Shown here one piece after another: positions 9,171 to 59,774 of a DNA stretch of 64,000 nt. The position numbers and the translations under genes were made by a program. Source of the stretch: Marixanthomonas spongiae (GTDB taxonomy: Bacteria > Bacteroidota > Bacteroidia > Flavobacteriales > Flavobacteriaceae). The stretch covers positions 310,001 through 374,000 of the forward strand of contig NZ_QEHR01000002.1 of assembly GCF_003095375.1 (NCBI RefSeq), in the 5' to 3' direction. The notes under the pieces are model-generated. The model saw nothing but the letters and a program-made list of their open reading frames with translations, did not search any database and was not told where the DNA came from. Each line of letters opens with the position of its first letter. The first letter of the stretch is position 1.

Positions 9171-9171
9171 G

Positions 9172-17284: not shown

Positions 17285-17786
17285 TTTTTTGAATGACGAA
17301 TGACGAATGACGAATGACGAATGACGAATGACGAAGGACGAGGTGCGAGGTGCGAACGTCGAATAGTGTTCTGTATTGTTTTACTTTGGCATGCCTGCTT
17401 ACATCATGTCAGGTCGAGTGGCCGTGAGGGACGAACGGGTGTATCGAGACCTTGATTAAGTGGATCTTAGGGTATTTATATCATCGCTTTTAATTGCCGG
17501 TTGTTTCGATACGATCCCGAATCGCTTCGCTTTCGGGATCACCTGCCCGAAAATTGGCAGGCGGGCTCAACCACCTGAGGTATTGCTTTTTTTTTGAAAT
17601 TGTGCTTTTGCTGATGTTGTATCTTAGAGAGTGTAAGGCAAAATGTTTATTATCATGGTCATAGGACACCCCCCCCGTAGCCCCTACTTCGGCTACGCTC
17701 AGCACAGGCTCTCAAGGGGGGAATCCCGTTGTATTGTCCTACTTCGGCGGGCTCAGCACACCGCCTTGAGGGGACTTTAGGGGTGT
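17285..17786. repeat. Repeat block 5' of the DUF559 cassette
   Basis: Right after wzc is a short tandem of GAATGAC (about 17291-17333). Then come a minus-strand S-type element with GGTC/GACC arms (17411-17453), a plus-strand S-type element with an extra inserted hairpin (17497-17576), and a C-type element (17664-17786) ending AGGGGTGT. A conserved linker, GGCAAAATGTTTATTATCAT, precedes the C element. This is the left flank of the DUF559 gene. Confidence 0.88.
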
Positions 17787-17826
17787 AGGGCAAAATGTTT
17801 ATTGAAAAGAACATTTTATATGTTTG

Positions 17827-18198
17827 TCACAATGTTTTGTTTAGCTCCATTACTTTCTCCCTTATGGCCAACTCCACTGAAAACATATCTTTTTTTACCG
17901 CTAAGTCAGTAAACCGTAGAAAGGTAATTTTGTAGGATTCCAATAGTCCTTGACGGGAAGCGTCGTAGGTGTATTTATAATCGTGGCTATCGCCGTCAAC
18001 TTCAATGGCCAATTTCAATTCGTGGCAATAAAAGTCAACAATGAACTCCAGTAAAGGCACTTGCCTGTGAAATTGTACGCCAAAAGAGCGGTTTTTAATC
18101 AGTTTCCACAGGATGACTTCAGAAAGGGTGCTGTTCTTTCTCAGGTACCGGGCGTATTCTTTTAACTTGGGGTTATATGGTATTATTTTGTTTTTCAC
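17827..18198 (-). CDS. DUF559 endonuclease-like protein (PD-(D/E)xK fold)
   Basis: The 123-residue product starts at GTG 18198 (VKNKIIPYNPKLKEYARYLR), the standard start of this family. The open frame runs further up to 18240, but that part is repeat. The conserved core NSTLSEVILW...FHRQVPLLEFIVDFYC...LAIEVDGDSH contains the Asp and the E-x-D pair expected of the Vsr-like PD-(D/E)xK nuclease fold. The family is called DUF559; no reaction is proven. It is on the minus strand against the whole polysaccharide operon and sits exactly between two C-type repeats (17664-17786 and 18235-18330), separating wzc from wzm. I read it as an inserted cassette, not a glycan gene. Confidence 0.85.
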   Translation of the reverse strand: MKNKIIPYNPKLKEYARYLRKNSTLSEVILWKLIKNRSFGVQFHRQVPLLEFIVDFYCHELKLAIEVDGDSHDYKYTYDASRQGLLESYKITFLRFTDLAVKKDMFSVELAIREKVMELNKTL

Positions 18199-18234
18199 AA
18201 TTGGTAATATAGTGAAAATTTTGCTGGTGTATAA

Positions 18235-19040
18235 GGACACCCCCCGTAGCCCCTACTTCGACGAGCTCAGCACACCGCCTCAAGGGGGGAATTCTACTGT
18301 ATTGTCCCCTCGAGGGGACTTTAGGGGTGTTCGGCAATTTGTTTATTTATTTTGCCTTGACACCCCCCGTAGCTCCCCTCAAGGGGGGAATCCCGTTGTA
18401 TTGTCCTACTTCCCTTCGGCTCCGCTCAGGGCAGGCTAGGCTCAGCACACCGCCTTGAGGGGACTTTAGGGATGTAGGGCAACAGGTTTATTATCATGGT
18501 CATGGGACACCTCTCTTAACCCCCCTCGAGGGGGGAATGCCACTATATTGTCCCCTTGAGGGGACTTTAGGGGTGTTCTTGCTTTTAATTGCCAGTTGTT
18601 TCGATACAATCCCGAATCGCTTCGCTTTCGGAATCACTCAACCACCTGGGGTATTGCTTTTTTTTTAAAATTTGTGTTTTTGCTGATGTTGGATATTAGA
18701 GGGTGTAAGGCAAAATGTTTATTATCATGGTCATAGGACACCCCCGTAACCCCTACTTCGGCTACGCTCAGCACAGGCTCTCAAGGGGGGAATCCCGATG
18801 TATTGTCCTACTTCGGCAGGCTCAGCACACCGCCTTGAGGGGACTTTAGGGGTGTTCGGCAATTTGTTTATTTATTTTGCCTTGACACCCCCCGTAGCCC
18901 CCCTCAAGGGGGGAATCCCGTGGTATTGTCCTACTTCGGCGGGCTCAGCACACCGCCTTGAGGGGACTTTAGGGGTGTAAGGCAATTTGTTTGTTGCTTT
19001 GGCTTCGCTCAGCACAGTATCTCAAGGGAGGATTCACCTA
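18235..19040 (+). repeat. Repeat block 3' of the DUF559 cassette
   Basis: C-type elements lie at 18235-18330, 18359-18476, 18505-18576, 18744-18855 and 18885-18978, with an S-type element at 18592-18647. A decayed fragment (GGCTTCGCTCAGCACAG...TCAAGGGAGG) lies at 19001-19040. The elements share outer arms ACACCCC/GGGGTGT but differ by short palindromic inserts at the tips of their inner stems. No gene is present before wzm at 19115. Confidence 0.9.
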
Positions 19041-19114
19041 AAAACACAATAACCTACCCATCTAAAAAACAGAATTAGTATATTAGCCGCCTGAAATTAA
19101 AACACCATTCCCCA

Positions 19115-19978
19115 TTGAGCGCAAAAACCAACAACGACTGGTTATACGAAATCACGCCGCATAAGAAGCTTATTTCGCTGAACCTAAAGGAAATATGGCG
19201 GTACCGTGATCTGTTGATTCTTTTTGTGAAGCGCGATATTGTTACCGTTTACAAGCAGACGGTTTTAGGGCCGTTGTGGTATTTTATCCAGCCGTTGTTC
19301 ACTTCGGTTATTTTTACCTTGGTGTTCAACAATGTGGCAGGGGTGAGCACGGGGGGCGTGCCTTCGTTTTTGTTCAACTTGGCGGGGATTACGGCTTGGA
19401 ATTATTTTAAAGCCTGTTTTACGGGCACCTCCAATATTTTTAGGGGCAATGCCGGTATTTTTGGCAAAGTGTATTTCCCCAGGGCCATTATGCCGCTGTC
19501 CATTACCATTTCCAATTTATTGAAATTTGGCATTCAATTGCTGATCTTTATTGGGTTTTACCTGTATTTTGTTTTTTTGGGTCATGACGTAAGCCCCAAC
19601 GCTTATTTAATGTTGATGCCCGTGTATGTGGTAATGATGGCATTGATGGGGCTCGGGATGGGGATGACCATTTCGGCCGTGACTACCAAATACCGCGATT
19701 TAACCGTCTTGGTAGGCTTTGCCACTTCGTTGTTGATGTACATTTCGGCCGTGCCTTTTCCATTGAGCAAGGCCGTGGAACAACTGCCCAAATATGCTTG
19801 GGCATTTGAGTATAACCCCATTACCCAAATTATTGAAGGGTTCCGGTTTATGACCTTGGATTACGGTACGTTTACCTGGGGCGGATTTATATATGCGCTG
19901 GTGTTTTCGGTGAGCATTTTTTTAATAGGACTGGTGATTTTCAACCGCACGGAAAAGAATTTTATCGATACCGTTTAG
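19115..19978 (+). CDS. wzm: ABC-2 polysaccharide exporter permease Wzm
   Basis: A 287-residue integral membrane protein with six predicted helices and the ABC-2 membrane-domain motifs RYRDLLILFVKRDIVTVYKQT and LGPLWYFIQPL. With Wzt it moves undecaprenyl-linked O-antigen or capsule glycan across the inner membrane. The start is TTG at 19115 (MSAKTNNDWLYEI); no ATG is available before the first helix. A TATATTAG near-consensus -7 box is at 19079-19086. Unusually, its partner wzt is 788 bp away because a four-helix-bundle cassette lies between them. Confidence 0.95.
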   Translation: MSAKTNNDWLYEITPHKKLISLNLKEIWRYRDLLILFVKRDIVTVYKQTVLGPLWYFIQPLFTSVIFTLVFNNVAGVSTGGVPSFLFNLAGITAWNYFKACFTGTSNIFRGNAGIFGKVYFPRAIMPLSITISNLLKFGIQLLIFIGFYLYFVFLGHDVSPNAYLMLMPVYVVMMALMGLGMGMTISAVTTKYRDLTVLVGFATSLLMYISAVPFPLSKAVEQLPKYAWAFEYNPITQIIEGFRFMTLDYGTFTWGGFIYALVFSVSIFLIGLVIFNRTEKNFIDTV

Positions 19979-19983
19979 TTAAG

Positions 19984-20145
19984 TAGTCAGTAGCCGATAG
20001 TTGGTAGTCGGGAGTTTGGAAGCCAGAAGTGTTGGTGTCTGGGTTTTTAAATGGTTTAAAAAACAAGATGCCGTAAAAGAAAACGTTGTTTCCCGTATGT
20101 TTGATGTTGAATAGCTCCATCTAACGACTAATGACTAAAAAAATA
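19984..20145. repeat. Left copy of GTCAGTAGT-type repeat element
   Basis: It begins with a block of GTAGTCAGTAGCCGATAG-like units (19984-20012) and passes a T-rich segment (GTTTTTAAATGGTTTAAA) and a -7-like TATGTTTG (20096-20103). It ends in the complementary block AACGACTAATGACTAAA (20124-20140), just before the start codon of the four-helix-bundle gene. The two end blocks can pair, so the element is a large hairpin. A second copy follows the gene. Confidence 0.75.
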
Positions 20146-20159
20146 CAAAATATCAAATT

Positions 20160-20519
20160 ATGGCCTTCCACTTTAAATTCGAAGACTTACAGGTATATCA
20201 AAAAGCGTTGGATTTTGTTGATCTCGCTTACGAAACTGCCCAGCTTTTTCCTAAAAGTGAATTGTATATTTTAACGTCCCAATATAAAAGAGCCGCTTTG
20301 TCCATTGCTTTAAATACCGCAGAAGGCCATGGGGATAGCAATGCTCAATTCAACAGATTTCTGCAAATTGCAAAGAACTCTGTAAAAGAATGTGTGGTGT
20401 GTTCCACCATTGCCAGAAGGCAAAATTATATCACACAAGAACAAGATAAATTCAATAGGGCAAAACTGGCTGAACTGTCAAAAATGATTGGAAGCCTCCA
20501 GAAATACTTGAAGAAATAG
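20160..20519 (+). CDS. Four-helix-bundle protein (S23/IVS family)
   Basis: A 119-residue all-helical protein with the family signature FEDLQVYQKALDFV...SQYKRAALSIALNTAEGHG...RFLQIAKNSVKECV. Databases often call it 'ribosomal protein S23', but the family was first seen as ORFs inside intervening sequences of 23S rRNA genes. It is not a ribosomal protein, and no catalytic residues are evident. It sits between wzm and wzt, which are normally adjacent, with copies of a GTCAGTAGT repeat element on both sides; the right copy begins within 6 bp of the stop. This context marks an inserted cassette. Confidence 0.9.
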   Translation: MAFHFKFEDLQVYQKALDFVDLAYETAQLFPKSELYILTSQYKRAALSIALNTAEGHGDSNAQFNRFLQIAKNSVKECVVCSTIARRQNYITQEQDKFNRAKLAELSKMIGSLQKYLKK

Positions 20520-20525
20520 CTCGCA

Positions 20526-20760
20526 GCCAGTGGTCAGTAGTCAGTGGTCAGTTGGTGGCTGGCTTTTTAAAAAGTTTTAAAGACCAAAACCCCTCAAAAA
20601 ACCATGTTTTTTGTAAGTTTGACCCTAATATCCAATAGAAAACAATTGCTTAAATAAAAGCCCACTATCAACTACCATTTAACGACTACCAACTAAAAAA
20701 CTACTACCGACTACCGTCTATCAAACGAACGGCTATCAAGCTACCGACTAAAAAACTACT
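20526..20760. repeat. Right copy of GTCAGTAGT-type repeat element
   Basis: It opens with CCAGTGGTCAGTAGTCAGTG (20527-20546) and has the same T-rich middle (GGCTTTTTAAAAAGTTTTAA) and a -7-like TAAGTTTG (20614-20621). It ends with several ACGACTACCAACTAAAAAAC units up to the wzt start. Its order of parts matches the left copy at 19984-20145, but it is longer through extra end units. It may supply a promoter for wzt. Confidence 0.75.
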
Positions 20761-20765
20761 ACCTA

Positions 20766-22040
20766 ATGACTATCTTAAAAGCCGAAAATATCTCCAAACA
20801 ATACCGCCTTGGGCTGGTGGGCACGGGCACGCTCAAGCACGATGTCAACCGGTTTTGGCACCGCATTCGGGGCAAGGAAGACCCGTACAGCAAGGTAGGC
20901 GCGGTAAACGACCGCAGTACCCAAGCCAAGGAAGAATATGTATGGGCCCTGCGCGACATTAATTTTGAAGTGCAACAAGGCGAGGTCTTGGGCATTATTG
21001 GCAAGAACGGCGCGGGGAAATCCACTTTATTGAAAATACTCTCCCGGGTAACGGGCCCCACCACCGGCAGTATAAAAACCAAAGGCCGTATCGCCTCCTT
21101 GTTGGAAGTGGGCACGGGTTTCCATCCAGAACTTACCGGCCGTGAAAACATTTATTTGAATGGCGCCATTCTGGGGATGACCAAAGCCGAAATCGCCGCC
21201 AAGGAAGACGAGATCATCGACTTCTCGGGTTGTGCTATGTATATTGATACCCCCGTAAAGCGGTACAGCAGCGGGATGCGCGTACGCCTAGGCTTTGCCG
21301 TGGCCGCCTTTCTCGAGCCCGATATTTTGGTGGTCGATGAGGTGCTGGCCGTGGGCGATGCCGAGTTTCAGAAAAAAGCCATAGACAAAATGAAAGCTAT
21401 TTCCACAGGTGAAGGAAGAACCGTTTTATTTGTTAGCCATAATATGGCGTCTATTCAAAATCTCTGTACTAGAGTAATGCTTTTGAATAACGGAATGGTA
21501 GATATAATTGGTAATACAGAAGATGTGATTAATCATTACCTGCATAAATATAGAAATGAAGAAGTAAGTCAAGATTTGGCTTCCCGAAAAGATAGAAAAG
21601 GAAATGGAAAATTAAAATTTTTGGATTATTGGATTGAAACCGTAGACGGAAAAAAAGTAAACGCCATGCAAACTGGGGGACATTTTAATATGATTATAAA
21701 AGTTAATAATGTATCTGACTTTAGCTTAAATAATGTTAGGATATCAGTAGGTATTGATGATGATCAAGCAAGAAGAATAACTGTTTTAGGGAATGACCTA
21801 ACAAATGAACTAATTGAATTGAGTAATAGACAAATAGATTTAATTAAAATATTAATTCCCAAAGTTCCGTTTCAAGCAGGAAACTATCATTTTACACTTT
21901 TTGCTAGCGAAGGGGAGGATGTCTTAGATTGGGTAATGAATGCAGGTTCGTTTGAGGTAGAACATGGAGATTTTTTTAATACAGGTAGAACAATCCAGCA
22001 GAATCAAGGAAATATATTAGTACATCATGAATTTCATTAA
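20766..22040 (+). CDS. wzt: ABC polysaccharide exporter ATPase Wzt with C-terminal glycan-binding domain
   Basis: A 424-residue protein. The N-terminal ABC ATPase (residues about 1-240) has Walker A GKNGAGKSTLLKIL, signature YSSGMRVRLGFAVA and Walker B ILVVDEVLAVGD. The C-terminal domain (about 260-424) is of the Wzt_C type, which recognises the finished glycan end before export. Base composition changes sharply near 21390: the ATPase half is GC-rich and the C-terminal half AT-rich, as expected if the glycan-specific domain was exchanged. The 3' end overlaps the next gene by 14 bp. Confidence 0.95.
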   Translation: MTILKAENISKQYRLGLVGTGTLKHDVNRFWHRIRGKEDPYSKVGAVNDRSTQAKEEYVWALRDINFEVQQGEVLGIIGKNGAGKSTLLKILSRVTGPTTGSIKTKGRIASLLEVGTGFHPELTGRENIYLNGAILGMTKAEIAAKEDEIIDFSGCAMYIDTPVKRYSSGMRVRLGFAVAAFLEPDILVVDEVLAVGDAEFQKKAIDKMKAISTGEGRTVLFVSHNMASIQNLCTRVMLLNNGMVDIIGNTEDVINHYLHKYRNEEVSQDLASRKDRKGNGKLKFLDYWIETVDGKKVNAMQTGGHFNMIIKVNNVSDFSLNNVRISVGIDDDQARRITVLGNDLTNELIELSNRQIDLIKILIPKVPFQAGNYHFTLFASEGEDVLDWVMNAGSFEVEHGDFFNTGRTIQQNQGNILVHHEFH

Positions 22041-22722
22041 GAAAGTAATAAAGGAAATATTTGATTCAGTTGGTTTTAAAATTGAAAAAAAATCTTCAAA
22101 AAATAATTTGAACTTAACTAAAGCTAGTAAAGTCCTTGAATATGAATATGGTCATCTTGAGAGCAAAAAAACTAAGACTTCAATTGGTGTGAATAAAGAA
22201 CCCGTGCCTTGGTTTACCTACCCAGCTATCGAGTATTTATCCCAATTAGATTTATCAGATTTGATTATGTTAGAGTGGGGAGCAGGAAACTCTTCCATTT
22301 TCTTTTCAAAAAAAGTGAAAAAACTATTTTCTATTGAGCATAATAAGGAATGGTATGATTTAGTGAAAACAAATAAACCTATAAATAATGAATTGATATA
22401 TGCAGATGAAGATTATGTAAAGAAAGCCGAAGAGTTTCAGAAAAGATTTGATGTTATTCTAATAGATGGTATTAAGAGGGAAGATTGTGCCAAAGCTGCA
22501 CTTAGATTGCTCAGTAAAAATGGTTTCATTATTTTAGATAACTGCGACCGCCATCCGGAAATTGCGGACATGTTTCGTGAAACTGGATTTATTGAAGTTG
22601 ATTTTCATGGTTTTGGGCCAATTAATGAATATACGTGGACTACTAGTTTATTCTTACGAAGAAGTGTTGAATTAAAACCACTATCGTTTCAACCTAAAAT
22701 ACCAATAGGAGGCGGTTATTAA
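22027..22722 (+). CDS. SAM-dependent methyltransferase-like protein
   Basis: The 231-residue product has a Rossmann motif I variant (LIMLEWGAGNSSIFF), a second acidic strand (LFSIEHNKEWYDLV) and FDVILIDGIKREDCAKAALRLL...GFIILDNCDRH. That is the plan of class I methyltransferases in glycan clusters. It has no signal peptide. It overlaps wzt, and in related systems methyltransferases in this position cap the glycan so that Wzt_C can recognise its end. That role is an inference from context. The gene is AT-rich like the Wzt_C-coding part. Confidence 0.7.
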   Translation: MNFIKKVIKEIFDSVGFKIEKKSSKNNLNLTKASKVLEYEYGHLESKKTKTSIGVNKEPVPWFTYPAIEYLSQLDLSDLIMLEWGAGNSSIFFSKKVKKLFSIEHNKEWYDLVKTNKPINNELIYADEDYVKKAEEFQKRFDVILIDGIKREDCAKAALRLLSKNGFIILDNCDRHPEIADMFRETGFIEVDFHGFGPINEYTWTTSLFLRRSVELKPLSFQPKIPIGGGY

Positions 22723-22733
22723 TTTAAGGAATA

Positions 22734-23468
22734 TTGAAAAAGATAAAACAACTCATAATTAAGGCTATACCCTCAAAGGTTAGAAAAAAAATTGAAAGAG
22801 ACGCTATCTCTAAATTCAAAAAAACCTCTAATTTTTCAAATATATCCTACTCCCAAGAAGGCGAGGATTTAATATTAAAGCGGTTTTTTGAAGGAAAAGA
22901 CAATGGGTTTTATGTGGATGTGGGCGCACATCATCCCAAACGATTTTCAAACACCTATGTTTTTTACCTAAAAGGATGGCGTGGTATTAATATAGACGCA
23001 ATGCCGGGAAGCATGAAGGGATTCAATGAACAACGCCCGCGCGATATAAATGTAGAAACAGGCGTATCTATGGAAAAAGATGAATTAACCTATTATATGT
23101 TCAATGAGCCAGCCCTTAATACTTTTTCTGAAAAAGAAGCAAAGAAAAAAGATGGCTTAAGGAACTTTAAAATAATTGCTGAAAAAAAAATACAAACCTT
23201 ACCTTTAAATGCAATCTTAGATACACATCTTCCAACAGATGTAGGAATAGACTTTATGACCATTGATGTAGAAGGATTGGACCTCCAGGTATTGCAATCA
23301 AATAACTGGGAAGTATATCGCCCTAATATGGTCTTGGTGGAAGATTTAAAAAAACGTGGTTTGGCAGATTTAATAACCAATAGTGCTGTTTATGATTTCT
23401 TGACCACAAAAAATTATCAATTGGTGGCCAAAACATGGAACACTCTTTTTTTTAGTGATAGAACTTAA
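22734..23468 (+). CDS. FkbM-family methyltransferase
   Basis: A 244-residue protein with FkbM hallmarks: [13 protein letters not shown] at the N-terminus, [17 protein letters not shown] (motif I), [10 protein letters not shown] and [17 protein letters not shown]. These enzymes O-methylate sugars or other hydroxyls with SAM. The start is TTG at 22734 ([19 protein letters not shown]). It ends one base into the next gene's ATG (TTAATG overlap). Together with the preceding gene it gives two methyltransferases directly after the exporter, suggesting a methylated terminal sugar. Confidence 0.9.
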
Positions 23469-25009
23469 TGAAATTAGCCCCAATCATATTATTTACCTAT
23501 AACCGTCCTTGGCATACCCAACAGGTCTTGGAAGCCCTTTCACAAAATGAGCTGGCTGACCAGAGTACGCTGTATATCTACTGCGATGGGCCAAAAGAAA
23601 ATGCAACACCCGAGAACTTGGCCAAAATAGATGAGGTACGCACGATTATTAGAAAAAAACAATGGTGCAAAGAAGTTATAATTAAGGAAAGAGACAATAA
23701 CCTGGGGCTTGCAAATTCTGTAATTAAAGGCGTAACTGAGGTCGTTGAAGCACATGGCCGCATTATCGTTTTGGAAGATGATATTGTAACTTCTACAGGA
23801 TTTTTAAATTATATGAATAATGCACTTCATTTTTACGATAATAATGAAAAAATAATGCATATTTCAGGATTTATGTATCCTCATAAAAACATATTACCTG
23901 AGACGTTCTTTTTTAATGTTCCTTTATGTTGGGGTTGGGCAACTTGGAAAGAATCATGGCAAGAATTTAATAATGATCCTCTATACTTATGGCAAACTCT
24001 TCAAGAAGGAGATTTATTAAATCAATTAGATAAATTTGGTGGAGATTATTTGAGTAGTCAACTTGCGCATAATATTTCAGGTAAATTAGATACTTGGTTT
24101 ATAAAATGGCATGCTTCTGTTTTATTGAAAAAAGGTTTTACATTGTTTCCATCTGTATCGTTGGTAGACAACATCGGATTTGATAATAGTGGAGTGCATA
24201 ATGGTAAACTTATACAATTCAAAAATGAAGAATTAGCTAGTAAAATTATTATTGAAGAGATTGATATAATTGAAAATAATGAAGCAAAAAAGATAGTAAC
24301 TACTTTTTATAAAAACCTCAGAAATGTTAGTTTAAAACGAAAATCTACTAGATTTAGTGTTAAAAAAAGTGTCATTTATAATTTAAGAAAAGTATTATTA
24401 AAGTTAATTCCTGAATTAAAAAAACAAAAAAATACCAGTAATATTGTTTCAAAAAAAAACAGTTATTTAGGTTTTAATTGTAAGGTTTATGCTAAATCAA
24501 GATTAAATAATACTATAATTGGAAACTATTCATACATAGCTGAGAATTCAACAATAAACAATACAATAATTGGAAAATTTTGTTCAATAGGCCCAAATTT
24601 AATTTGTGGCTGGGGTATTCATCCTACAAAAGGAATTTCAACCAGCCCTATGTTTTATTCTAATTTAAAACAAAACGGAATGTCATTAAGTCCTGAAAAT
24701 AAAATAAAAGAACATCTTCCTATCATAATTGGGAATGATGTTTTTATAGGAGCAAATGTTACAATATTAGACGGTGTTACAATTGGTGATGGAGCAGTTA
24801 TTGGAGCTGGAGCTGTAGTTTCAAAAAATATACCGCCTTATGCAATAGCAGTTGGTTGTCCTATTAATATTATCAACTACAGATTTGAAAAAGAAATAAT
24901 TGATAAATTAATTAAAATACAATGGTGGGATTTTAATATTGATAAATTAAAAATAGTTGAAGAATACCTTTTTAATATTGATGATTTTATTGAATTATAT
25001 CGAAATTAA
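23468..25009 (+). CDS. Glycosyltransferase-acetyltransferase fusion
   Basis: The 513-residue protein joins two activities. Residues 1-280 are a GT2-like glycosyltransferase ([20 protein letters not shown]; acidic [21 protein letters not shown]). Residues about 330-490 are a left-handed beta-helix acyltransferase with hexapeptide repeats ([54 protein letters not shown]) of the CatB/XAT type. A basic linker joins them. It probably adds a sugar and O-acetylates the product or an acceptor. The first 280 bp are GC-richer than the rest. The fusion is uninterrupted in frame. Confidence 0.88.
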
Positions 25010-25090
25010 AACTTTAATAAATATGTTTTTGAAATAAGAATATATTTATAATCGGTCTATTTAAAATAATAGCTTTTTAAAATTAAACGT

Positions 25091-27113: not shown

Positions 27114-27115
27114 AA

Positions 27116-29313: not shown

Positions 29314-29906
29314 ATATACATGCCGATTGAACTGCATAAATCCATTTTAAGATTTATCAAAAACTCAAAACCACTTTGCTAGATAAGCAAAACAGCAATT
29401 TCTTCATTAGGTACAAACGTTAAATTTTTCTTGTCTTGACGAAAAAAAGAGATCTTAATTTTGTAGCTTACCTCATTCCTTGTAACTTTAACCATATATT
29501 TTCGATTAGCTGGAACTAATTGGGAATTTAAATACTTCAAACTAGCTCAAAAATAAGCACGTGGTACTATCCGTCGCATTTTTTTTGAGCTTTTTTTCTT
29601 GGTTATCAACCAATTGTTAATAAATCATGATGTACCGCACCTCGTATAGCTTAAACAAATAGCAACTATTTTTTTCTTTATTGAAGGATTGTAAGAAAAA
29701 TTTGAAAGTATGGTGCTTTTTTAGGCGATAAAAAATATTCGAACAGCGGTAGGGTTGGATTTTTGGATTTGCTAAGCACTTTTTTAAAACTTCTTAGCAG
29801 TTTGTACAATTTGCTTAGCAGTTAGTACAATTGAATCGGTTAGTTTTCATAAAAAAACCCGGACAGCTGGAACTATCCGGGAATTTAAATACTACAAACC
29901 GTGGTA
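29314..29906. other. AT-rich gap with a duplicated terminator-like segment
   Basis: No gene is visible. A stretch at 29508-29579 is an imperfect copy of the region at 29864-29920 (shared AGCTGGAACTA, GGGAATTTAAATACT and CGTGGTACTATCCGTC). The second copy spans the terminator and stop codon of the HU-like gene. Two 20-21-bp direct repeats starting CTTAGCAGTT occur at 29793-29813 and 29814-29833. This may be the remnant of a second HU-like gene end. Confidence 0.6.
29850..29881 (-). terminator. Terminator of the HU-like gene
   Basis: CCCGGA and TCCGGG form a stem around an AGCTGGAACTA-containing loop. On the minus strand it is followed by seven T residues. It is 25 bp past the stop of the HU-like gene. 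Confidence 0.8.
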
Positions 29907-30290
29907 CTATCCGTCTATCAGTTTGTACTTAAGCGTGGCCAACATATCCCGTAGCCGCTTAGCGGGCCTAAAATTTAGGTGGGCGCTTTTTACGGTGTGG
30001 GTGTTCACATCTTCTTGAAGGTCTTTACCTTCAGATCGAACTCCTACTTGAAAGCGGCCTAAAGCCCCTAGATCTACAACACGACCTTGGCTAAGCTCAT
30101 CGGCTACATTGTGCATAAGGGCGAGCAGCACTGCATAGCAGTCACTTTCGCGTACGGTACACTGGTTGGACACTAAATACGCCAACCGTTCCAGATTGAC
30201 TTCCCCATCTGCAATAGCGTGGGCGTAAAATTTGGCAGGCGCTGTTACGTCCTGCGGGTTCCCTCTCGGGATGGCCTTGATACTTATCAT
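29907..30290 (-). CDS. HU-like DNA-binding protein (HU-HIG type)
   Basis: A 127-residue protein resembling the HU/IHF-fold 'DNA-binding domain, HU-HIG' family of Bacteroidota: KAIPRGNPQDVTAPAKFYAHA, then LERLAYLVSNQCTVRESDCYAVLLALMHNVADELSQGRVVDLGALGRFQVGV, and the basic C-terminus NFRPAKRLRDML. Members are often found inside capsule loci. It probably bends DNA or regulates; the target is unknown. It is one of only two minus-strand genes inside the polysaccharide locus, alone between long gaps, and has its own terminator. Confidence 0.85.
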   Translation of the reverse strand: MISIKAIPRGNPQDVTAPAKFYAHAIADGEVNLERLAYLVSNQCTVRESDCYAVLLALMHNVADELSQGRVVDLGALGRFQVGVRSEGKDLQEDVNTHTVKSAHLNFRPAKRLRDMLATLKYKLIDG

Positions 30291-30587
30291 GGCATTATGG
30301 TATTAATGACACCCTTTTTATTCAGGTGGTCCTCGGGACTATTCCTTTGGACAATGCTAATTTACTAAGAATTTTGGCTGTTTGTTAGGAATTTATTTTC
30401 CTAAATGTGAACAGTGAATTGTTAATTTGCTGATTGTCAGATACCTTAAAAAGTTATCAACAAATAAAAGTTGACAAATATTTTTTTTATTCTTACTTTA
30501 CTCTAATTAAAATTGGAAGCCCAATTCTACATGGTCGGAATGGGATTTTGCAGTCGAAATTCGGGTTTAATAATTTGGTATTTAAAA

Positions 30588-30622
30588 TTTGTAATACACT
30601 CCATTGTTTTTCCCTATTTTTG
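30588..30622 (+). promoter_or_regulatory. Promoter for the second glycosyltransferase block
   Basis: TTTG (30588-30591) is followed by 23 nt and TATTTTTG (30615-30622), a perfect -7 element. The GTG start of the GT2 gene is 20 nt downstream. The remaining sequence from 30291 to 30588 is AT-rich and holds nothing else I can name. Confidence 0.6.
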
Positions 30623-30641
30623 ACCCAAAACAAACAGTCCT

Positions 30642-31592: not shown

Positions 31593-31596
31593 ATGG

Positions 31597-32520: not shown

Positions 32521-32524
32521 GACT

Positions 32525-35535: not shown

Positions 35536-35551
35536 TTGTAAAATTATAAAT

Positions 35552-36631
35552 ATGTCTGTGAACGTAACCAAAACATTTTTACCATCGCAAGATGAATACA
35601 CTATTATTCTGGAAAAAGCCTGGGAAAAAGAATGGATTACGAACAGAGGAAGTCTAGTACATGAATTAGAGTCGAAGCTAAAAAAATTTTTGGGGGTTTC
35701 TAATATATTGGCTACAACAAATGGTACTTTACCGCTTCAAATGGCTATCAAAGCATTAGGGTTAAAGGGAGAAATTATAACCACTCCGTTTAGTTATGTT
35801 GCCACAACTAGTAGCATTGTATGGGAAGGATGTACCCCTGTTTTTGTGGACATACATCCTGAATACTTAACTATAGATGAAACTAAAATAGAGGCCGCAA
35901 TTACCTCTAAAACATCAGCAATATTGGCAACCCATGTATTTGGTAATCCCTGTGCGGTAAAAGAAATTGAAAGCATTGCTACAAAGCACAACGTAAAGAT
36001 CATTTATGATGCCGCTCATTGTTTTGGAGTCTCTTATAAAGGGAAAAGTATTTTTGAATACGGTGATGTCAGCACCTGTAGTTTTCATGCCACAAAGTTA
36101 TTCCATACCGGAGAAGGGGGAGCTATATTTGCAAATAATAAAGCACTGCAAAACAAGTTGTTTTACCATCACAATTTTGGGCATAAAGGTAAAGAGGCCT
36201 TTCAAGGCTTAGGTATCAATGCTAAAATGAGCGAATTACAAGCTGCAATGGGCCTAGCTGTATTCCCGCACTTGGAAAAAATAATTGTAGGAAGGAAAAG
36301 AGCAGTACAGTTCTATAAAAACGAGCTTCAAGGCTTTAAACAATTAAAAGTAAGAAACGAGACTCATTGGAATTATTCTTATTTTCCTATAATTTTTGAA
36401 ACAGAAGAAGGGTTGCTCAAAGTGCAGAAAGCTTTGAACACCATAGATGTTTTTCCTAGAAGATATTTTTATCCAAGTCTTGAAAAATTACCATACATAT
36501 TATCTGTTCCTAGCATACCAGTAGCAGAGAATATTTCCGAAACCATATTATGTTTACCGCTGTACCATGATATTTCTGAGATAGAGTTAAGCACAATAGT
36601 AAATTGTATTAAAAAAACAATGGCATTATGA
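35552..36631 (+). CDS. DegT/DnrJ/EryC1 sugar aminotransferase
   Basis: A PLP enzyme of 359 residues that converts a nucleotide-linked 4-keto sugar to the 4-amino sugar using glutamate. It shows [12 protein letters not shown] (phosphate binding), [20 protein letters not shown], and the PLP lysine in [14 protein letters not shown], closest to the FdtB/VioA-type group. I use the ATG at 35552 ([12 protein letters not shown]); the frame extends upstream but into the preceding gene. It overlaps the acetyltransferase by 4 bp (ATGA), giving a 4-acetamido-sugar module. Gmd product is a possible substrate but is not proven. Confidence 0.93.
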
Positions 36632-37254
36632 TTATAATTGGAACAAAAGGAATGGCAAAAGAAGTGTTGGAAATAGTCTCCTGTGAAATGAAATTGAAAG
36701 ATAATGAAACAGTGTTTTTCGATAATATTAATAGTTACCGTTCAGATCTATATAGCCGCTTTCAAGTTTTAAAGAACCTTGAAGAGGTAAGTGCCTATTT
36801 TAAAAATCATAATGCCCATTTTACTTTGGGATTGGGAGGGGTTATAAATAGAAGAAAAATGGCAGATACTTTTTTAAGTTTGGGAGGTACACTTACCTCC
36901 ATTATTTCCAACTTTGCCAAAATAGGTTCTTTTAACACTCATATAGGTGATGGTTGCCAATTGATGCAAGGCGTTATTATAACTAATGAGGTATCATTGG
37001 GGAAAGGGGTTTTGGTAAATATTAACTCTACAATTAGCCACGACACTAAAATAGGGGATTTTTCTGAAATAGCACCCAACGTGTCAATAACAGGGAGATG
37101 CAGTATTGGGAAAAATGTCTTTATAGGTAGTAATGCAACCATTTTACCCGATGTTACCATAGGCGATAATGCAATAATAGGTGCAGGGGCAGTAGTACTG
37201 TCTAATGTTCCTTCAAACAAAACAGTGGTAGGTAACCCCGCTCGAATTATTTAA
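36628..37254 (+). CDS. Sugar O/N-acetyltransferase, NeuD/PglD family
   Basis: A 208-residue protein: an N-terminal Rossmann-like part ([17 protein letters not shown]) and a left-handed beta-helix of hexapeptide repeats ([62 protein letters not shown]; ends VVGNPARII). The His in [10 protein letters not shown] matches the catalytic base of PglD-type enzymes. It is coupled to the DegT aminotransferase, so N-acetylation of the new 4-amino group is the simplest reading. Confidence 0.92.
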
Positions 37255-37256
37255 AT

Positions 37257-38213
37257 ATGGATAACCCTCTAGTTTCTGTCTGCATGATTACATACAATCA
37301 TGAAAAGTATATAACGCAGGCCATTGAAAGTGTTTTAAGTCAATGTATTGATTTCGATTTTGAATTTATAATCGCAAATGACGCCTCTACCGATAATACA
37401 GATTTACTTATCACTAAATTAATCAAGGATAACCCTGAAATAACTTTTAAATATTTTAATCATTCTGAAAACAAGGGGATGATTGACAATTTTATCTTTG
37501 CCCTGTCAGTGTGTAAAGGAAAATATATTTCTTTATGTGAAGGTGATGACTACTGGACAGATACATCAAAATTAAAAAAACAAGTAAAGTTCTTGGAGTT
37601 AAATCCAGAATATGAGATGTGTTTTACTAATATTAAAGTAGTTAATTTTTTAGGTAAACAAATTAAAAAAAAATTAATTGTCAATGCAAAAAAGTCCTCT
37701 TATACCCATAAAGATATGACTATATGGGCTCCTACCTTGACAAGAGTATTCAAAAATCGAGATTTCAGTGTAATACATAAACCATCGCCTGGTATGGATA
37801 CCTTAATGTTGGTATATCAATCTACTTTAGGAAAGATTAAATTTTTGGATGAGATAACTGGCGCTTATAGAATTCACGATACCGGTGTGTTTAGTATGAT
37901 AAAAATTAGCCGTAAATATGAGCATAAAATAAAAACAAGTATTGCCTGTTTGTCTTTTGTGCATAGAATATATAAAAAAAAATATGTCGGAGAAATTTTA
38001 AAAAACTTGCTTGAGCTTAAAGCCATTGATAAAAAACTATATAAGAGAACATGTCATTATTTTATGAGTGAAGTTGAATTATTGAAAGATATGCCAAAAA
38101 TTAAACTTTATAAATTCTGGTTAGGTTATTATATAATAAAACTACCGTTACATAAGTCTTCATCAACCATAATCTTTACTAAAAAGGTAATTAATCATTT
38201 ATTAATCTATTGA
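37257..38213 (+). CDS. Family 2 glycosyltransferase
   Basis: A 318-residue GT-A enzyme: VSVCMITYNHEKYITQAIESVLSQ, FIIANDASTDNTDLLI, and the metal site ISLCEGDDYWTD. The gene is AT-rich throughout, in line with recently acquired glycan genes. It starts 2 bp after the acetyltransferase, which suggests (without proof) that it transfers the acetamido sugar made by the two preceding enzymes. Confidence 0.92.
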   Translation: MDNPLVSVCMITYNHEKYITQAIESVLSQCIDFDFEFIIANDASTDNTDLLITKLIKDNPEITFKYFNHSENKGMIDNFIFALSVCKGKYISLCEGDDYWTDTSKLKKQVKFLELNPEYEMCFTNIKVVNFLGKQIKKKLIVNAKKSSYTHKDMTIWAPTLTRVFKNRDFSVIHKPSPGMDTLMLVYQSTLGKIKFLDEITGAYRIHDTGVFSMIKISRKYEHKIKTSIACLSFVHRIYKKKYVGEILKNLLELKAIDKKLYKRTCHYFMSEVELLKDMPKIKLYKFWLGYYIIKLPLHKSSSTIIFTKKVINHLLIY

Positions 38214-38217
38214 ACTA

Positions 38218-39210
38218 TTGAAAACTGCCGTCGTCCTTACCGTCAAAAACGAAGCCCGCCTGCTGCGGCCAAACCTGCTGTACCACCTGGGGCTGGGCAT
38301 AGACCGGGTTTTTGTCTATTTTGACCATACCACCGATAACGGCCCAGAGACCATTGCCGATCTAAAAAACGTACAAGCTCAGAATTCCGTATCGGCAGAA
38401 CAATACAGCGATTTACCTTTTCTAAAAAAGTTTTGGAGCAATGCTGAGGAACACCACACCGCAAGACAGTGCCTAAACACCTACGATGCGTTGCAACAGT
38501 GTAAGCAAGAAGGGATAGATTGGTTGGTTTCCTTAGATGCCGACGAACTGTTTATAACACGGAACAAAGGTCAGCAAACCCTAACTGATTTTTTCAATGC
38601 CGAAATAACCGAAAATTACGATGTCATCCGTTTGCCAACGCTAGAAATGGTCAACCGAAAAATGGCCTACCAAAATGTTATGGCCGAGGAAACCCTGTTT
38701 AAAAAACAGAAAAATTTCAAGTCGCGGTTCGACAGGATTTATAGAAAGCTGTATAACCCTTATACCAAAAAACATATCACAACCTCCTATTGGCTGGGGC
38801 ATACCATGGGCAAGGCGGCCATCAACGTGCACAGCGATTTGATTCCCTTTAATGTGCATCGGTACCAAAAGCACAATGGCGACAAACCCCGGGAAAAAAA
38901 AGCAGGCAACATCCTGCATTACCACCTCTACGATTTTGAGGATTTTTTAAAGAAGTATCGAAATTTCAAAAATAGGTCGATCACTTATTTGAGCGGTAAT
39001 CAAATAAATTCATTAAAAAGCCTGTGGATAAAACTGGTCAATGATCCGCAGCATGATAAAGCGTCTTTAAAAAACTACTATAAAAAGAACATACATTACA
39101 ATAAAAAAGAACTGGCGCGATTGCACAAAACCCGTGTGTTCAACATTTTAAAACGAAAGGAAGAAGCGGTGGTGCAAATAACCAAGCCAAAGGAAGTGCT
39201 GAGGGATTAA
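38218..39210 (+). CDS. Glycosyltransferase, GT92/GT2-like
   Basis: A 330-residue protein with KTAVVLTVKNEARLLRPNLLYHLGLGIDRVFVYFDHTTDNG and the metal motif WLVSLDADELFI, typical of the Glyco_tranf_2_4 (GT92-like) group. The C-terminus is very basic. The start is TTG at 38218, 4 bp after the preceding stop. It is GC-richer than its neighbour and is followed at once by CACGCAGAG-type repeats that break the operon. Confidence 0.88.
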   Translation: MKTAVVLTVKNEARLLRPNLLYHLGLGIDRVFVYFDHTTDNGPETIADLKNVQAQNSVSAEQYSDLPFLKKFWSNAEEHHTARQCLNTYDALQQCKQEGIDWLVSLDADELFITRNKGQQTLTDFFNAEITENYDVIRLPTLEMVNRKMAYQNVMAEETLFKKQKNFKSRFDRIYRKLYNPYTKKHITTSYWLGHTMGKAAINVHSDLIPFNVHRYQKHNGDKPREKKAGNILHYHLYDFEDFLKKYRNFKNRSITYLSGNQINSLKSLWIKLVNDPQHDKASLKNYYKKNIHYNKKELARLHKTRVFNILKRKEEAVVQITKPKEVLRD

Positions 39211-39220
39211 CCACGAAGTG

Positions 39221-39400
39221 TTTTTCACGCAGAGATCCGCTGAGAAAAACACGCTGGGGCTCGCAGAGAAGAAAAATCCCGCCATCTTTAGCGAAAAAAC
39301 AACACTAAAACCTCCGAGAGACCCCCACTTTAGCGAGAAGCCCTCCTCAGCGAGAAATCGCTACGCTTCTAAGAGAAACTTTTCCGCATCCCCATCTTGA
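39221..39400. repeat. Left flank of CACGCAGAG-type repeats
   Basis: Degenerate units such as TTTTTCACGCAGAGATCCGC, CTCGCAGAGAAG, AGCGAGAAG and TCAGCGAGAAAT run from 39221 to about 39400. They are a decayed array of the same family that follows the GxxExxY gene. A TATTTTTA -7-like box lies at 39406-39413. Confidence 0.75.
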
Positions 39401-39456
39401 AACACTATTTTTATTAAATTAAATTCATAGTTTTATGGCTTCAATAACCTTTCATT

Positions 39457-39840
39457 ATGGAAATCAATATTATTACGGGTCAAATAATTGACACCTCTAT
39501 CCAATTACATCGCACCCTCGGTCCAGGGTTATTGGAAAGTGTATATGAAAAATGCCTTGAGGTTGATTTAAGAGAAAAGGGGTTTGAAGTGGTAAGCCAA
39601 TTAGGCGTACCTCTGAAATACAAAAATCTGGAATTCAACACCGGATATCGGTTGGATCTTTTAGTTGAAAACCAGGTTATTGTCGAAGTGAAATCCGTTG
39701 AAACGCTTGCGCCAGTTCACTTTTCACAACTATTGACCTACCTAAAGCTTTATGATAAACGTGTTGGACTATTGATTAATTTTAATTCAAAATACTTAAA
39801 ACAAGGATTGCATAGAATAGTAAACAAATATGAAGATTAA
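39457..39840 (+). CDS. GxxExxY-family protein (PD-(D/E)xK fold)
   Basis: A 127-residue protein with the naming motif GPGLLESVYEKCL (GxxExxY) and a nuclease-like core: YRLDLLVENQVIVEVKSVE, which supplies the Asp and E-x-K of a PD-(D/E)xK fold, then HFSQLLTYLKLYDKRVGLLINFNSKYLKQGLHRI. No function has been shown for the family as far as I know. It interrupts two polysaccharide genes and is bracketed by CACGCAGAG-type repeats, beginning only about 8 bp after its stop. I read it as part of an inserted cassette. Confidence 0.9.
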   Translation: MEINIITGQIIDTSIQLHRTLGPGLLESVYEKCLEVDLREKGFEVVSQLGVPLKYKNLEFNTGYRLDLLVENQVIVEVKSVETLAPVHFSQLLTYLKLYDKRVGLLINFNSKYLKQGLHRIVNKYED

Positions 39841-39847
39841 AAGTTTG

Positions 39848-40116
39848 TTTCACGCTGAAGATGCTGATAAGGTTTCACGCTGAGAACGCTGGGGTTTTTT
39901 CACGCTGAGGACGCAGAGATTTTTTCATGCTGAGGATGCGTAGGTTTAACAGAATATCATATCTTAAGCTCCAAAACCCCTCAGCGACCCCTGCGTGTTT
40001 TTCCCACAGCGGTCTCTGCGTGAACCCAACACTATGAGCATACAGCAACTCAAAACCCAAAAAATCCTCAGCGACCCCTGCGTGTTTTCCCCACAGCGGT
40101 CTCTGCGTGAACCCCA
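39848..40116. repeat. Right flank of CACGCAGAG-type repeats
   Basis: Forward units CACGCTGAGGACGCAGAG occur at 39850-39945. The inverted form CAGCGACCCCTGCGTG...GGTCTCTGCGTGAAC then occurs twice as a nearly exact 55-bp direct repeat (39972-40026 and 40060-40115). Forward and inverted units can pair into a long hairpin. The repeats run to within 20 bp of the next gene. Confidence 0.88.
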
Positions 40117-40133
40117 ACCCAACCCAGCACTAA

Positions 40134-41519
40134 ATGAACATCATCAAAACGCCCATAATCCCACCCCGCCAACAATTCGCAAAAGTCGAAGCCCCGCACG
40201 AACTGGACAAAAAAGCCATTTGCATTTTTGCAGCCACGGGTTTTTTTCTCGATACAGATACCTATTTCCAAAACCAAAAAGTACTCCCCCCGGCTTCTGA
40301 AAACAGTATGGACGAAAACGGCATGTTGCTCAAAAGCACACCTTGGTTTAAATGGCATTACAGTCCACGAAATATCAGTTTTGAAACCGCTTTGGACGAA
40401 TTTACCCAATTGTTTGAAACCATTGTAGCAGAACAGGCCAACAACCGGCCGGTTATCCTGCCGCTCTCCGGTGGGTTGGACAGCCGCACCCAAGCCGTGG
40501 CCTTGCACGAACAGAAGGCTGAGGTGCATTCCTATTCCTATTCCTTTGCCGGTGGGTTTAAAGAGCACCACATCAGTGCGCAAATTGCCAAGACGTGTAA
40601 CTTTCGGTTTCAACCGTTTATCATCCCCCCCAATTATTTATGGCAGGTAATCGATGAACTGGCCAACATCAATGGGTGTTATTCCGAGTTTACCCATCCC
40701 AGGCAAATGGCGGTCTTGGACGACTTTAAAAAAATGCAAGGCAGTTTTTCCTTGGGCCATTGGGGTGATGTACTGTTTGATCGGGGCGTGGGCAAAAAAG
40801 AAGCACACCTTCCTGAATTGGAAATCCTGTATAAAAAAATAATCAAAAAAGGAGGCTTGGCCTTGGCCAATAAGCTTTGGATTCAATGGGGATTGGAAGG
40901 CAGTTTTGAAGCCTATTTAAAAGAAAGGCTGGAGGCACTATTGAACCAAATCGATATCGACCATAAAGGGGCAAAGGTACGGGCGTTCAAGTCGTTGTAT
41001 TGGGCCCCGCGGTGGACCAGCGTCAACCTGTCTGTTTTTGAAGAAGCCCACCCCATACACCTCCCGTATTACGATAACCGCATGTGCGCGTTTATTTGCA
41101 CCCTACCCGAAGAATATTTGGCGGACAGGAAACTGCAAATTGCGTACATCAAGCAACGCAGCCCCAAACTGGCCAAAATTATGTGGCAGGCACAAAAACC
41201 TTACAACCTCAATAATTACCATAAAAACAAGGCCCCCGGAAACCTGCCGTATCGCATAAGCAACAAACTCCAACGGGAAGGCAACGCACTTCTGGGCAAA
41301 AAATACATCCAGCGTAATTGGGAGCTGCAGTTTTTGGGCATGGAAAACGACGAACAATTGCAAAGCTATATTTTTAACCCACAGTTTCATTCGTTTGTCC
41401 CAAAATCCGTGGTAACCGAATTTTACAACGCATTTAAAACCCAAGATCCCGTCACCTATTCCCACCCCGTAAGTATGTTGTTAACGTTGAGTGTTTGGTA
41501 TGCTAATAACAGACCCTGA
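40134..41519 (+). CDS. Asparagine synthase-related protein lacking the glutaminase domain
   Basis: A 461-residue protein. The synthase PP-loop is present as LPLSGGLDSRTQAVAL (about residues 105-120), followed by FSLGHWGDVLFDRG, so it should adenylate a carboxylate. There is no N-terminal Cys2 glutaminase; residues 1-90 are unlike one. It may use ammonia or an amine from another protein, or act as an amide ligase in glycan decoration. It is isolated by cassettes on both sides (GxxExxY upstream, GIY-YIG downstream). The full-length paralogue is at 32525. Confidence 0.83.
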   Translation: MNIIKTPIIPPRQQFAKVEAPHELDKKAICIFAATGFFLDTDTYFQNQKVLPPASENSMDENGMLLKSTPWFKWHYSPRNISFETALDEFTQLFETIVAEQANNRPVILPLSGGLDSRTQAVALHEQKAEVHSYSYSFAGGFKEHHISAQIAKTCNFRFQPFIIPPNYLWQVIDELANINGCYSEFTHPRQMAVLDDFKKMQGSFSLGHWGDVLFDRGVGKKEAHLPELEILYKKIIKKGGLALANKLWIQWGLEGSFEAYLKERLEALLNQIDIDHKGAKVRAFKSLYWAPRWTSVNLSVFEEAHPIHLPYYDNRMCAFICTLPEEYLADRKLQIAYIKQRSPKLAKIMWQAQKPYNLNNYHKNKAPGNLPYRISNKLQREGNALLGKKYIQRNWELQFLGMENDEQLQSYIFNPQFHSFVPKSVVTEFYNAFKTQDPVTYSHPVSMLLTLSVWYANNRP

Positions 41520-41678
41520 AACAAGTTAGACCCTGAAACAAGTTCAGGGTGACAAACCTTATTTCTATGTCATGCTGAACCTTTGTCATGCTGAACTCGT
41601 TTCAGCATCTGATCTTCCATTTGTCATGCTGAACTCGTTTCAGTATTGTTTCAGCATCGTTTCAGCATCTTCAGCATC
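41518..41678. repeat. Left flank of TGAACTCGTTTCAG-type repeats
   Basis: Units GACCCTGAAACAAGTTCAGG (palindromic, CCTGAAAC/GTTCAGG) are followed by several copies of TGTCATGCTGAACTCGTTTC and CAGCATCGTTTCAGCATC. They start at the stop codon of the asparagine-synthase-like gene and run to the GIY-YIG gene. A TATCTTTA -7-like box at 41687-41694 lies between the repeat and the GIY-YIG start. Confidence 0.88.
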
Positions 41679-41719
41679 TTTTTCCTTATCTTTATCTATA
41701 ACAACCACATTACAATTAT

Positions 41720-42040
41720 ATGCCACACCGAACCTATCACAACTATTGGGTATATATCATTACCAACAAACCTCATGGTGTGTTGTATATAGGAGTTACC
41801 GGTGGGCTTGATGATAGAATGGAGCGACACGTCAAGGGTGAAGGAGGTTACTTTTCCGCGAAGTATAGGCTAAAACAATTAGTTTATTTTGAACAATTCC
41901 AATATATTCATGATGCTATTGCCAGAGAGAAACAACTAAAAAACTGGCATCGGCAATGGAAAATTAATCTTATTGAGCAGCAGAATCCTGATTGGAATAA
42001 TTTATGGAAACCATTAGACCCTGAACTAAATTCAGGGTGA
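41720..42040 (+). CDS. GIY-YIG nuclease domain protein
   Basis: A 106-residue single-domain GIY-YIG protein: YWVYIITNKPHGVLYIGVTGGLDDRMERH carries the two Tyr-containing strands and the Arg, and AIAREKQLKNWHRQWK the Glu-bearing helix. The fold cuts DNA in homing endonucleases and UvrC, but single-domain members like this have no settled role. The last eight codons (LDPELNSG) and the TGA stop are made of the flanking palindromic repeat (CCCTGAACTAAATTCAGGG), so gene and repeat are physically fused. It lies between two polysaccharide genes as a cassette. Confidence 0.92.
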   Translation: MPHRTYHNYWVYIITNKPHGVLYIGVTGGLDDRMERHVKGEGGYFSAKYRLKQLVYFEQFQYIHDAIAREKQLKNWHRQWKINLIEQQNPDWNNLWKPLDPELNSG

Positions 42041-42263
42041 CAAATTATGGATGGTGGGCATTAGACCCTGAACTAAATTCAGGGTGACACCCCCCCCCCC
42101 CCCCCCCCCCCTGTCATGCTGAACTCGTTTCAGCATCGTTTCAGCATCGTTTCAGCCCCCCCTTTGTCATGCTGAACTCGTTTCAGCATCGTTTCAGCAT
42201 CGTTTCAGCCCCCCCCCTTTGTCATGCTGAACTCGTTTCAGTATCGTTTCAGTATTGTTTTAG
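42009..42263. repeat. Right flank of TGAACTCGTTTCAG-type repeats with a C22 tract
   Basis: Two copies of GACCCTGAACTAAATTCAGG (the first overlaps the GIY-YIG stop) are followed by an uninterrupted run of 22 C at 42090-42111. Then come three blocks of TGTCATGCTGAACTCGTTTC plus CAGCATCG units, with shorter C runs between them. The C tracts are probably length-variable. Confidence 0.9.
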
Positions 42264-42301
42264 CCTCTTAAAAACACTACTTTTGAAATTCACATTTCAA
42301 T

Positions 42302-59770: not shown

Positions 59771-59774
59771 GGTT

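Follow-up and report, generated by a model that had tools for sequence, protein, structure and literature searches.

Small ORFs of four unrelated families and their family-linked terminal repeats as putative intergenic cassettes in Flavobacteriaceae

Free-standing homing endonuclease genes have GIY-YIG and PD-(D/E)XK nucleases, intergenic insertion and empty alleles in common with the small elements that we analyze here, four of which lie in a 64,000-nucleotide stretch of the Marixanthomonas spongiae genome (hereafter the window), each built around one small open reading frame (ORF) of the DUF559, four-helix-bundle (4HB), GxxExxY or GIY-YIG family. They differ from homing endonuclease genes in that family-specific repeats flank them, that no evidence of a cleaved empty allele was found and that 4HB is not a nuclease. 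In the REP/RAYT system (TnpA-REP, REPtron; PMC8266576), as far as the available text of that source goes, a low-copy protein is likewise tied to its cognate repeats and co-evolves with them. The 4HB protein is that of the 23S rRNA intervening sequences (IVSs), whose description in the accessible parts of PMC4990558 shares further features with the elements seen here: the PF05635 family (4HB only), an ORF between terminal inverted repeats, a patchy distribution, recurrent sites and tolerated insertion. Avd of diversity-generating retroelements, in the portion of PMC10053308 that treats it, is also related to PF05635, and the 4HB ORF of the window weakly matches the Avd model as well; the element described here differs in holding a single ORF. 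We propose that the four elements are probably self-contained intergenic cassettes, each made of a small ORF and terminal repeats of its own family, that they follow two designs and that the protein reads its own units as DNA.

An earlier note on this DNA, made from the sequence alone, had reported four large gaps in an operon, each with one small ORF; their positions are confirmed, as are the family calls (PF04480/DUF559, PF05635/TIGR02436, TIGR04256/PF13366 and PF01541) and the assignment of 3/4 ORFs to nuclease-type families, and repeats occupy every one of the four gaps. The DUF559 ORF (17827-18240, minus strand, 137 aa, PF04480) is antisense to the operon and matches in sequence PDB entry 3hrl, an “Endonuclease-Like Protein.” Its gap is a mosaic of C-rich hairpin repeats and TTTCGATAC...CTCAACCACC hairpins, one such hairpin lying at 17486-17580 in the left part (17285-17826) and a second CGATAC hairpin at 18581-18647 in the right part (18241-19114). 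All features of the other three cassettes are on the plus strand. The 4HB ORF (20160-20519, 119 aa, PF05635 and TIGR02436) is preceded by GTAGTC / GTTGGTAGTC words (19979-20159) and followed by inverted words (20520-20765) that terminate at the start codon of wzt; wzm and wzt are our own names for the permease and ATPase genes on its two sides. The GxxExxY ORF (39457-39840, 127 aa, TIGR04256 and PF13366, PD-(D/E)XK) lies between an upstream end with CACGCAGAG words (39211-39456) and a downstream end with CACGCTGAG and CTCTGCGTG words (39841-40133), and the GIY-YIG ORF (41720-42040, 106 aa, PF01541) between upstream hairpins with CCTGAAACAAGTTCAGG and TGAACTCGTTTCAG (41520-41719) and downstream hairpins (42041-42301), its stop codon falling within its own repeat, as had been noted. 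The repeats had been said to begin 0-40 bp from the ORF, but upstream of GxxExxY no clear words come closer than ~80 bp.

The link between repeats and ORF family was assessed in 120 same-family genomes (119 genera), in which the GIY-YIG domain is present in 120/120, 4HB in 89/120, DUF559 in 60/120 and GxxExxY in 25/120. The best-scoring and hand-picked loci among the matches listed, a non-random sample of 200, gave 216 hidden Markov model matches, of which 193 passed size and edge filters, 190 remained once duplicates were out and 152 (64 genomes) had both trimmed noncoding flanks of at least 25 bp without N. Since shared neighbor genes confound such a flank test, flanks were trimmed and pairs with homologous neighbors excluded. 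A count of window words with one mismatch allowed gave few matches in relatives because the words differ between genomes, and an alignment-based comparison was used instead. For 129/152 loci, the nearest flank from a different genome was that of a same-family ORF, and this remained so for 118/152 with homologous-neighbor pairs excluded (119 on a re-run, probably through tie-breaking): 28/30 for DUF559, 23/35 for GxxExxY, 33/40 for 4HB and 34/47 for GIY-YIG. Label permutation (5000) gave a mean of 25% and a highest value of 40%, and base composition alone assigned 58/152 to the right family, so that flank class predicts ORF family above chance, as the earlier note had expected. In the window, the closest matches to the DUF559, GxxExxY and GIY-YIG flanks come from the respective family, with one GIY-YIG flank in a tie for GxxExxY.

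The two ends of a cassette tend to be inverted copies of each other. When each upstream flank was compared with the reverse complement of its own downstream flank, the median score was 28 for GxxExxY, 25.5 for 4HB, 28.5 for DUF559 and 24 for GIY-YIG, versus 16, 14, 18 and 15 in the same comparison against different loci of that family (p <= 2.4e-14 for every family). For the window's own cassettes, the score was beaten by 3 (DUF559), 0 (4HB), 0 (GxxExxY) and 2 (GIY-YIG) of 145 downstream flanks from other genomes. Similarity of the proteins also goes with similarity of the flanks: in Mantel tests, which rest on non-independent pairs, permutations reached the observed value in 0/500 cases for GxxExxY, DUF559 and GIY-YIG and in 18/500 for 4HB.

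This association extends beyond the family. Named GTDB genomes were scanned with a GxxExxY alignment and the best 80 loci kept, which include Nostoc, Calothrix, Prosthecobacter, Chlamydiae and Ignavibacteriales, many of them metagenome bins. Among the 74 usable loci, ends are again inverted (28.5 vs 17, p=2.6e-14), and 65/74 are nearest to the GxxExxY flanks of the first set, for a base rate of 35/152. Outside Bacteroidota, as judged by genome titles, 18/19 usable loci agree, the exception being one alphaproteobacterial bin; the GxxExxY link thus reaches Cyanobacteria and Chlamydiae. One of the words CGC-[ACT]-[AG]-AG, CGCGGAG or GCCAAG, a pattern chosen post hoc, occurs as an inverted pair across the GxxExxY ORF in 37/74 of these loci and 13/35 of the first set, as against 0/117 loci of the other three families and 0/74 shuffled loci. 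As for 4HB, TIGR02436 genes are found in 223/296 Bacteroidota genomes examined, and a phylum-wide search of 30 loci, 11 of which the motif missed, gave inverted ends in the 19 readable ones (22 vs 16); the associated p=1.6e-7 is too good because same-family genomes and near-copies are among the 19.

Several observations on individual loci accompany these comparisons. Three GxxExxY matches carry internal stops or split frames (G073:C2:222056, G036:C11:49052 and G088:C60:29505), which fits turnover, as expected. GIY-YIG ORFs occur in tandem pairs ~300-1000 bp apart (G108:C1:200622/201134, G013:C15:34612/35648, G069:C13:365450/365764 and G073:C3:111158/111515), suggesting tandem amplification. 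In G098:C10 (179465/181407), G040:C1 (1276667/1277536), G027:C1 (87262/90950) and G061:C1 (2825767/2827401), cassettes that belong to different families are no more than 4 kb apart, which hints, by eye and with no statistics, at shared hotspots. Moreover, a subset of GIY-YIG ORFs of 80-90 aa (L101, L123, L171, L177 and L180) is located close to genes for tRNAs (Asp, Ser, Asp, Val x2, Arg), and hairpins and fragments resembling tRNAs adjoin the ORF.

The repeats had originally been described as hairpins in all four classes. This is right for DUF559 and GIY-YIG, whose flanks fold locally (z about -2 and -0.9), but not for 4HB and GxxExxY, for which a median fold z of about 0 in relatives rules out local hairpins; their flanks pair across the ORF and do fold when joined (z -2.9 and -1.9). 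The unit period is 7 bp in 4HB and about 9-10 bp in GxxExxY. The families also differ in orientation: both neighbors are in the sense of the ORF in 53/54 cases for 4HB and 36/42 for GxxExxY, compared with 23/35 for DUF559 and 32/53 for GIY-YIG, and both are against it in 0, 1, 7 and 6 cases, respectively, the remainder being mixed.

Ends that pair across an ORF read in the sense of its neighbors would also suit elements acting as RNA, like IVSs, in which the two ends would form a stem in the operon mRNA that is cut by the encoded protein or RNase III, the ORF would be a passenger or an autoregulator and selection would keep the RNA stem. The kinship of 4HB with the IVS protein points the same way, as does the Coxiella IVS, whose terminal inverted repeats form a 28-bp stem and which RNase III excises, in the account given in PMC4990558. 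We nevertheless consider such an RNA-level element unlikely. In pooled 4HB and GxxExxY loci, stem mismatches show no G-U bias (189 wobble-compatible vs 214 not), which lends no support to selection on an RNA stem and argues for selection at the DNA level; GxxExxY word types recur across phyla, a recurrence that pairing alone does not need; and the DUF559 and GIY-YIG cassettes are also found antisense to both neighbors. Set against the IVS as portrayed in the available text of that paper, the cassettes here differ in lying outside rRNA, between protein-coding genes (wzm-wzt, fadB-fadA and groES-groEL, the last two pairs again being our own names for neighbor genes in relatives), in having ends that are arrays of units with a 7-bp period whose words change in step between species, and in showing no sign of RNA-pairing selection by the G-U test. 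The 4HB cassette is most likely an out-of-rRNA cousin of the 23S rRNA IVS.

Repeats without an ORF are found elsewhere in the window. Clusters of C-rich and CGATAC hairpins lie in three ORF-less gaps (8204-9171, 12986-13973 and 45383-46132), so the claim that each repeat class is tied to a single ORF type fails for the C-rich class. The TTTCGATAC...CTCAACCACC hairpins are located at 8204-9171, 10931-11008, 12986-13973, 17486-17580, 18581-18647 and 45585-45678; the copies are up to 97% identical and interleaved with C-rich repeats, and a GIY-YIG ORF at another place in the genome (L146) is flanked by sequence similar to that of the DUF559 gap. The C-rich repeats have 34 matches over 7 contigs, self counted, in a genome with two small ORFs that match DUF559 over its full length, and one GIY-type hairpin is dispersed across the window. 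In BLAST searches of the genome, which are weak on short words, the GxxExxY words of the window were found at no place beyond the two ends of their own cassette, and the GIY-YIG words at one other short place. Dispersal of all four repeat types across the genome is therefore unsupported by BLAST, which misses short words and was not run with the 4HB words; dispersed, REP-like repeats are seen only for the C-rich class and one GIY type.

These dispersed hairpins raise the possibility of a REP/RAYT-like system proper, in which the hairpins move and the ORF encodes a fixed, low-copy protein that mobilizes them. The excess of C-rich matches over DUF559 ORFs, the GIY-type hairpin and the concordance of protein with flank similarity all agree with it. 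We regard it as doubtful for the four cassettes as a whole: no HUH/Y1 transposase model is among the NCBIfam and Pfam matches of the four ORFs, the GxxExxY words are absent elsewhere in the genome by the same short-word-limited BLAST, and the 4HB and GxxExxY ends are not hairpins and are located at the two ends of the ORF. Those matches include no DDE transposase model, such as a DDE insertion sequence would have, either. The REP/RAYT parallel drawn in the earlier note is thus supported only in part, by the C-rich repeats and one GIY-type hairpin, dispersed palindromes being a likeness to what the consulted text of PMC8266576 describes; dispersed copies of the GxxExxY words were not seen in that BLAST. 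As judged against that same text, the proteins here belong to PD-(D/E)XK, DUF559, GIY-YIG and 4HB families instead of HUH, and two cassette types have long-range inverted arrays in place of hairpins; what is shared is the protein-repeat partnership of TnpA-REP/REP, minus the HUH protein.

Residues D67, E77 and K79 of GxxExxY are invariant in 30 aligned sequences, that of the window included. A D, E, K triad is that of PD-(D/E)XK nucleases. The predicted structure of GxxExxY is confident (predicted local distance difference test score, pLDDT, 93), and a fold search gave no match at E <= 0.001; the best weak matches were a tRNA-splicing endonuclease, a Cas4-like protein (SSO0001, our own naming of this match) and alkaline/lambda exonucleases, too weak to pick a substrate. 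A nuclease fold with a conserved active site, as in homing endonucleases, is accordingly suggested by the triad and these matches for GxxExxY alone, and not for 4HB. A GxxExxY gene adjoining a CRISPR-associated reverse transcriptase is mentioned in the accessible text of PMC8934634; no description of a function of GxxExxY, or of 4HB outside rRNA, was found in the open-licence PubMed Central literature, and, among the papers listed there for these family names and for REP/RAYT, no title or abstract start describes such cassettes, which is weak evidence of novelty.

If these are discrete cassettes, junctions with and without them should be found between the same genes. The earlier note had called for short junctions in relatives, and these are present, including at the wzm-wzt site of the window itself. 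At wzm-wzt, 30 loci gave 26 measured gaps (the partner gene was not found in 4): 13 are of 5-23 bp, 3 carry 4HB (the window and two other genera) and 10 are others, among them five that measure 402-1113 bp and hold no member of the four families. The closest relative of the window 4HB in the protein tree (G038) lies at this same junction and has the word GTTGGTAGT in common with it. At fadB-fadA, 30 loci comprise 14 gaps of 3-42 bp, 7 with 4HB (416-514 bp), 8 of 69-116 bp, inverted halves being present in five of these, and a single gap of 716 bp (L222) with none of the four families; L045, L068 and L144 fall outside the main fadB-fadA 4HB clade and have other words at the same site. At groES-groEL, 2 of 30 loci carry 4HB and 28 gaps are of 18-131 bp; ORF-less remnants suspected there by eye failed a shuffle test (0/23).

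One junction in a single genus (g120), where 61 loci gave 55 measured gaps, provides a closer view. Of these gaps, 23 are of 339-539 bp, every one with a 4HB match, another 30 measure 36-230 bp, with inverted halves in 16 of them, and the last 2 measure 18 and 31 bp; ORF-less relatives of the cassettes occur at two junctions, this one and fadB-fadA. Two ORF-less elements here (L429 and L435) are C-rich and resemble DUF559 repeats. Among 15 orthologous 4HB cassettes (18 less 3 in which no ORF was found), words vary by species (CTAAG, CAAAGGTT, CAGAGTTT), and the change is matched at both ends, own ends scoring 30 and crossed ends 20 (p=1e-5). Protein identity follows word similarity in these orthologs (Spearman 0.70, on non-independent pairs). 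A ratio of nonsynonymous to synonymous substitution rates (dN/dS) of 0.15 among 13 of them (39/78 pairs with dS < 1.5) shows purifying selection on this set. A second 4HB type (27-38% identical), partly broken and with GGTTTAAA-like words, is located at the same junction in three other species.

Such data bear on a passive association, in which old intergenic expansions hold vertically inherited small genes, the repeats drift by slippage and the link reflects shared site ancestry. It would account for the site-specific 4HB clades and for the homologous-neighbor sites common to many genomes (76 pairs for 4HB). We find it quite improbable, as the link persists without homologous-neighbor pairs (118/152) and extends to other phyla, two 4HB types with different words occupy one junction in one genus, and both ends change together. 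The proposal of independent repeat-plus-protein cassettes is therefore upheld by the flank test (118/152 vs 25%), by GxxExxY in other taxa (65/74) and by the existence of short junctions.

Several results weigh against self-contained cassettes as we propose them. In the flank test, 34/152 flanks were assigned to the wrong family, and the closest match in the reference set to the flank of the window 4HB comes from DUF559 rather than 4HB. Taken singly, about half of the loci have ends in the top 5% of controls (17/35 GxxExxY, 23/40 4HB, 16/30 DUF559 and 23/47 GIY-YIG), and only 28/74 GxxExxY loci do so in other taxa, while 8/19 phylum-wide 4HB loci exceed the 95th percentile of crossed pairs. 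Inverted halves were found in 0/23 short groES-groEL gaps and 0/5 wzm-wzt gaps, and own and crossed ends at fadB-fadA differ weakly (p=0.016, n=16). Most fadB-fadA 4HB copies form one clade in a tree in which some rows so labelled adjoin that junction rather than sit in it, and 4HB clades are site-specific, so that much of the distribution can be put down to long vertical residence. Neither target-site duplication nor recent transposition is demonstrated: no duplication was discernible by eye at the junctions examined, whose flanks are too divergent, and the short gaps may have lost a cassette long ago instead of never having been filled. The near-strict sense orientation of 4HB and GxxExxY is unexpected if a symmetric element inserts freely without selection for expression. 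Lastly, 4HB is not a nuclease, and cutting cannot be common to all four.

With these reservations, the cassette reading would work as follows. In the 4HB/GxxExxY design, short phased unit arrays (7 bp and about 9-10 bp) face in opposite orientations on either side of an ORF that nearly always has the sense of its neighbors, between the stop codon of one gene and the start codon of the next; in the DUF559/GIY-YIG design, the units are local palindromic hairpins able to spread as ORF-less copies. At the DNA level, the protein would recognize its own units, through cutting in the nuclease families and through binding in 4HB, and this recognition would keep both ends alike and drive cassette gain at intergenic sites through host repair. 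Ends 400 bp apart might be rewritten jointly by repair that follows cutting or by copying via a hairpin or cruciform. Inserted among co-transcribed genes, a cassette would need no promoter to be expressed and would do little damage, and the cassettes would therefore persist as low-harm selfish DNA. More tentatively, these might be selfish elements of a kind not named before, in which each of the unrelated small proteins owns a short word that it reads as DNA while keeping both arrays rewritten alike. Protein and word could then drift together, the GxxExxY word (CGC-x-R-AG type) having stayed recognizable across several bacterial phyla.

The window belongs to a 3.4-Mb genome (G000, contig C2, 310001-374000) and carries a polysaccharide operon that includes genes for a Wzz/GNVR/AAA-domain protein, an ABC-2 permease (wzm, 19115-19978), an ATPase with a Wzt C-terminal domain (wzt, 20766-22040), glycosyltransferases and others. 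The four gaps with one small ORF each are accompanied by a further large gap in the operon (29314-30641), overlooked in the initial count, which holds an antisense ORF for an HU-HIG DNA-binding protein (29907-30290, minus strand) and in which none of the repeat words searched was found. Farther on, a tandem array at 58524-59774, in which no gene was recognized, repeats the unit GGTTTCGGTACAAATTCAG...CTGAATTCACTCAACCACC ~14 times at a spacing of 84 bp; its end matches a portion of the sequence that flanks a GIY-YIG ORF at another place in the genome.

For 4HB and GxxExxY, the cognate repeat is a concrete candidate substrate. If confirmed, the cassettes would extend the repeat-plus-protein partnership beyond HUH transposases, as one that has arisen with at least four unrelated proteins. 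Arrays changing in step with their protein would offer new small sequence-specific DNA-binding or DNA-cutting proteins (106-137 residues in the window), and the concerted in-place rewriting of two ends about 400 bp apart would be an evolutionary process in need of a mechanism.

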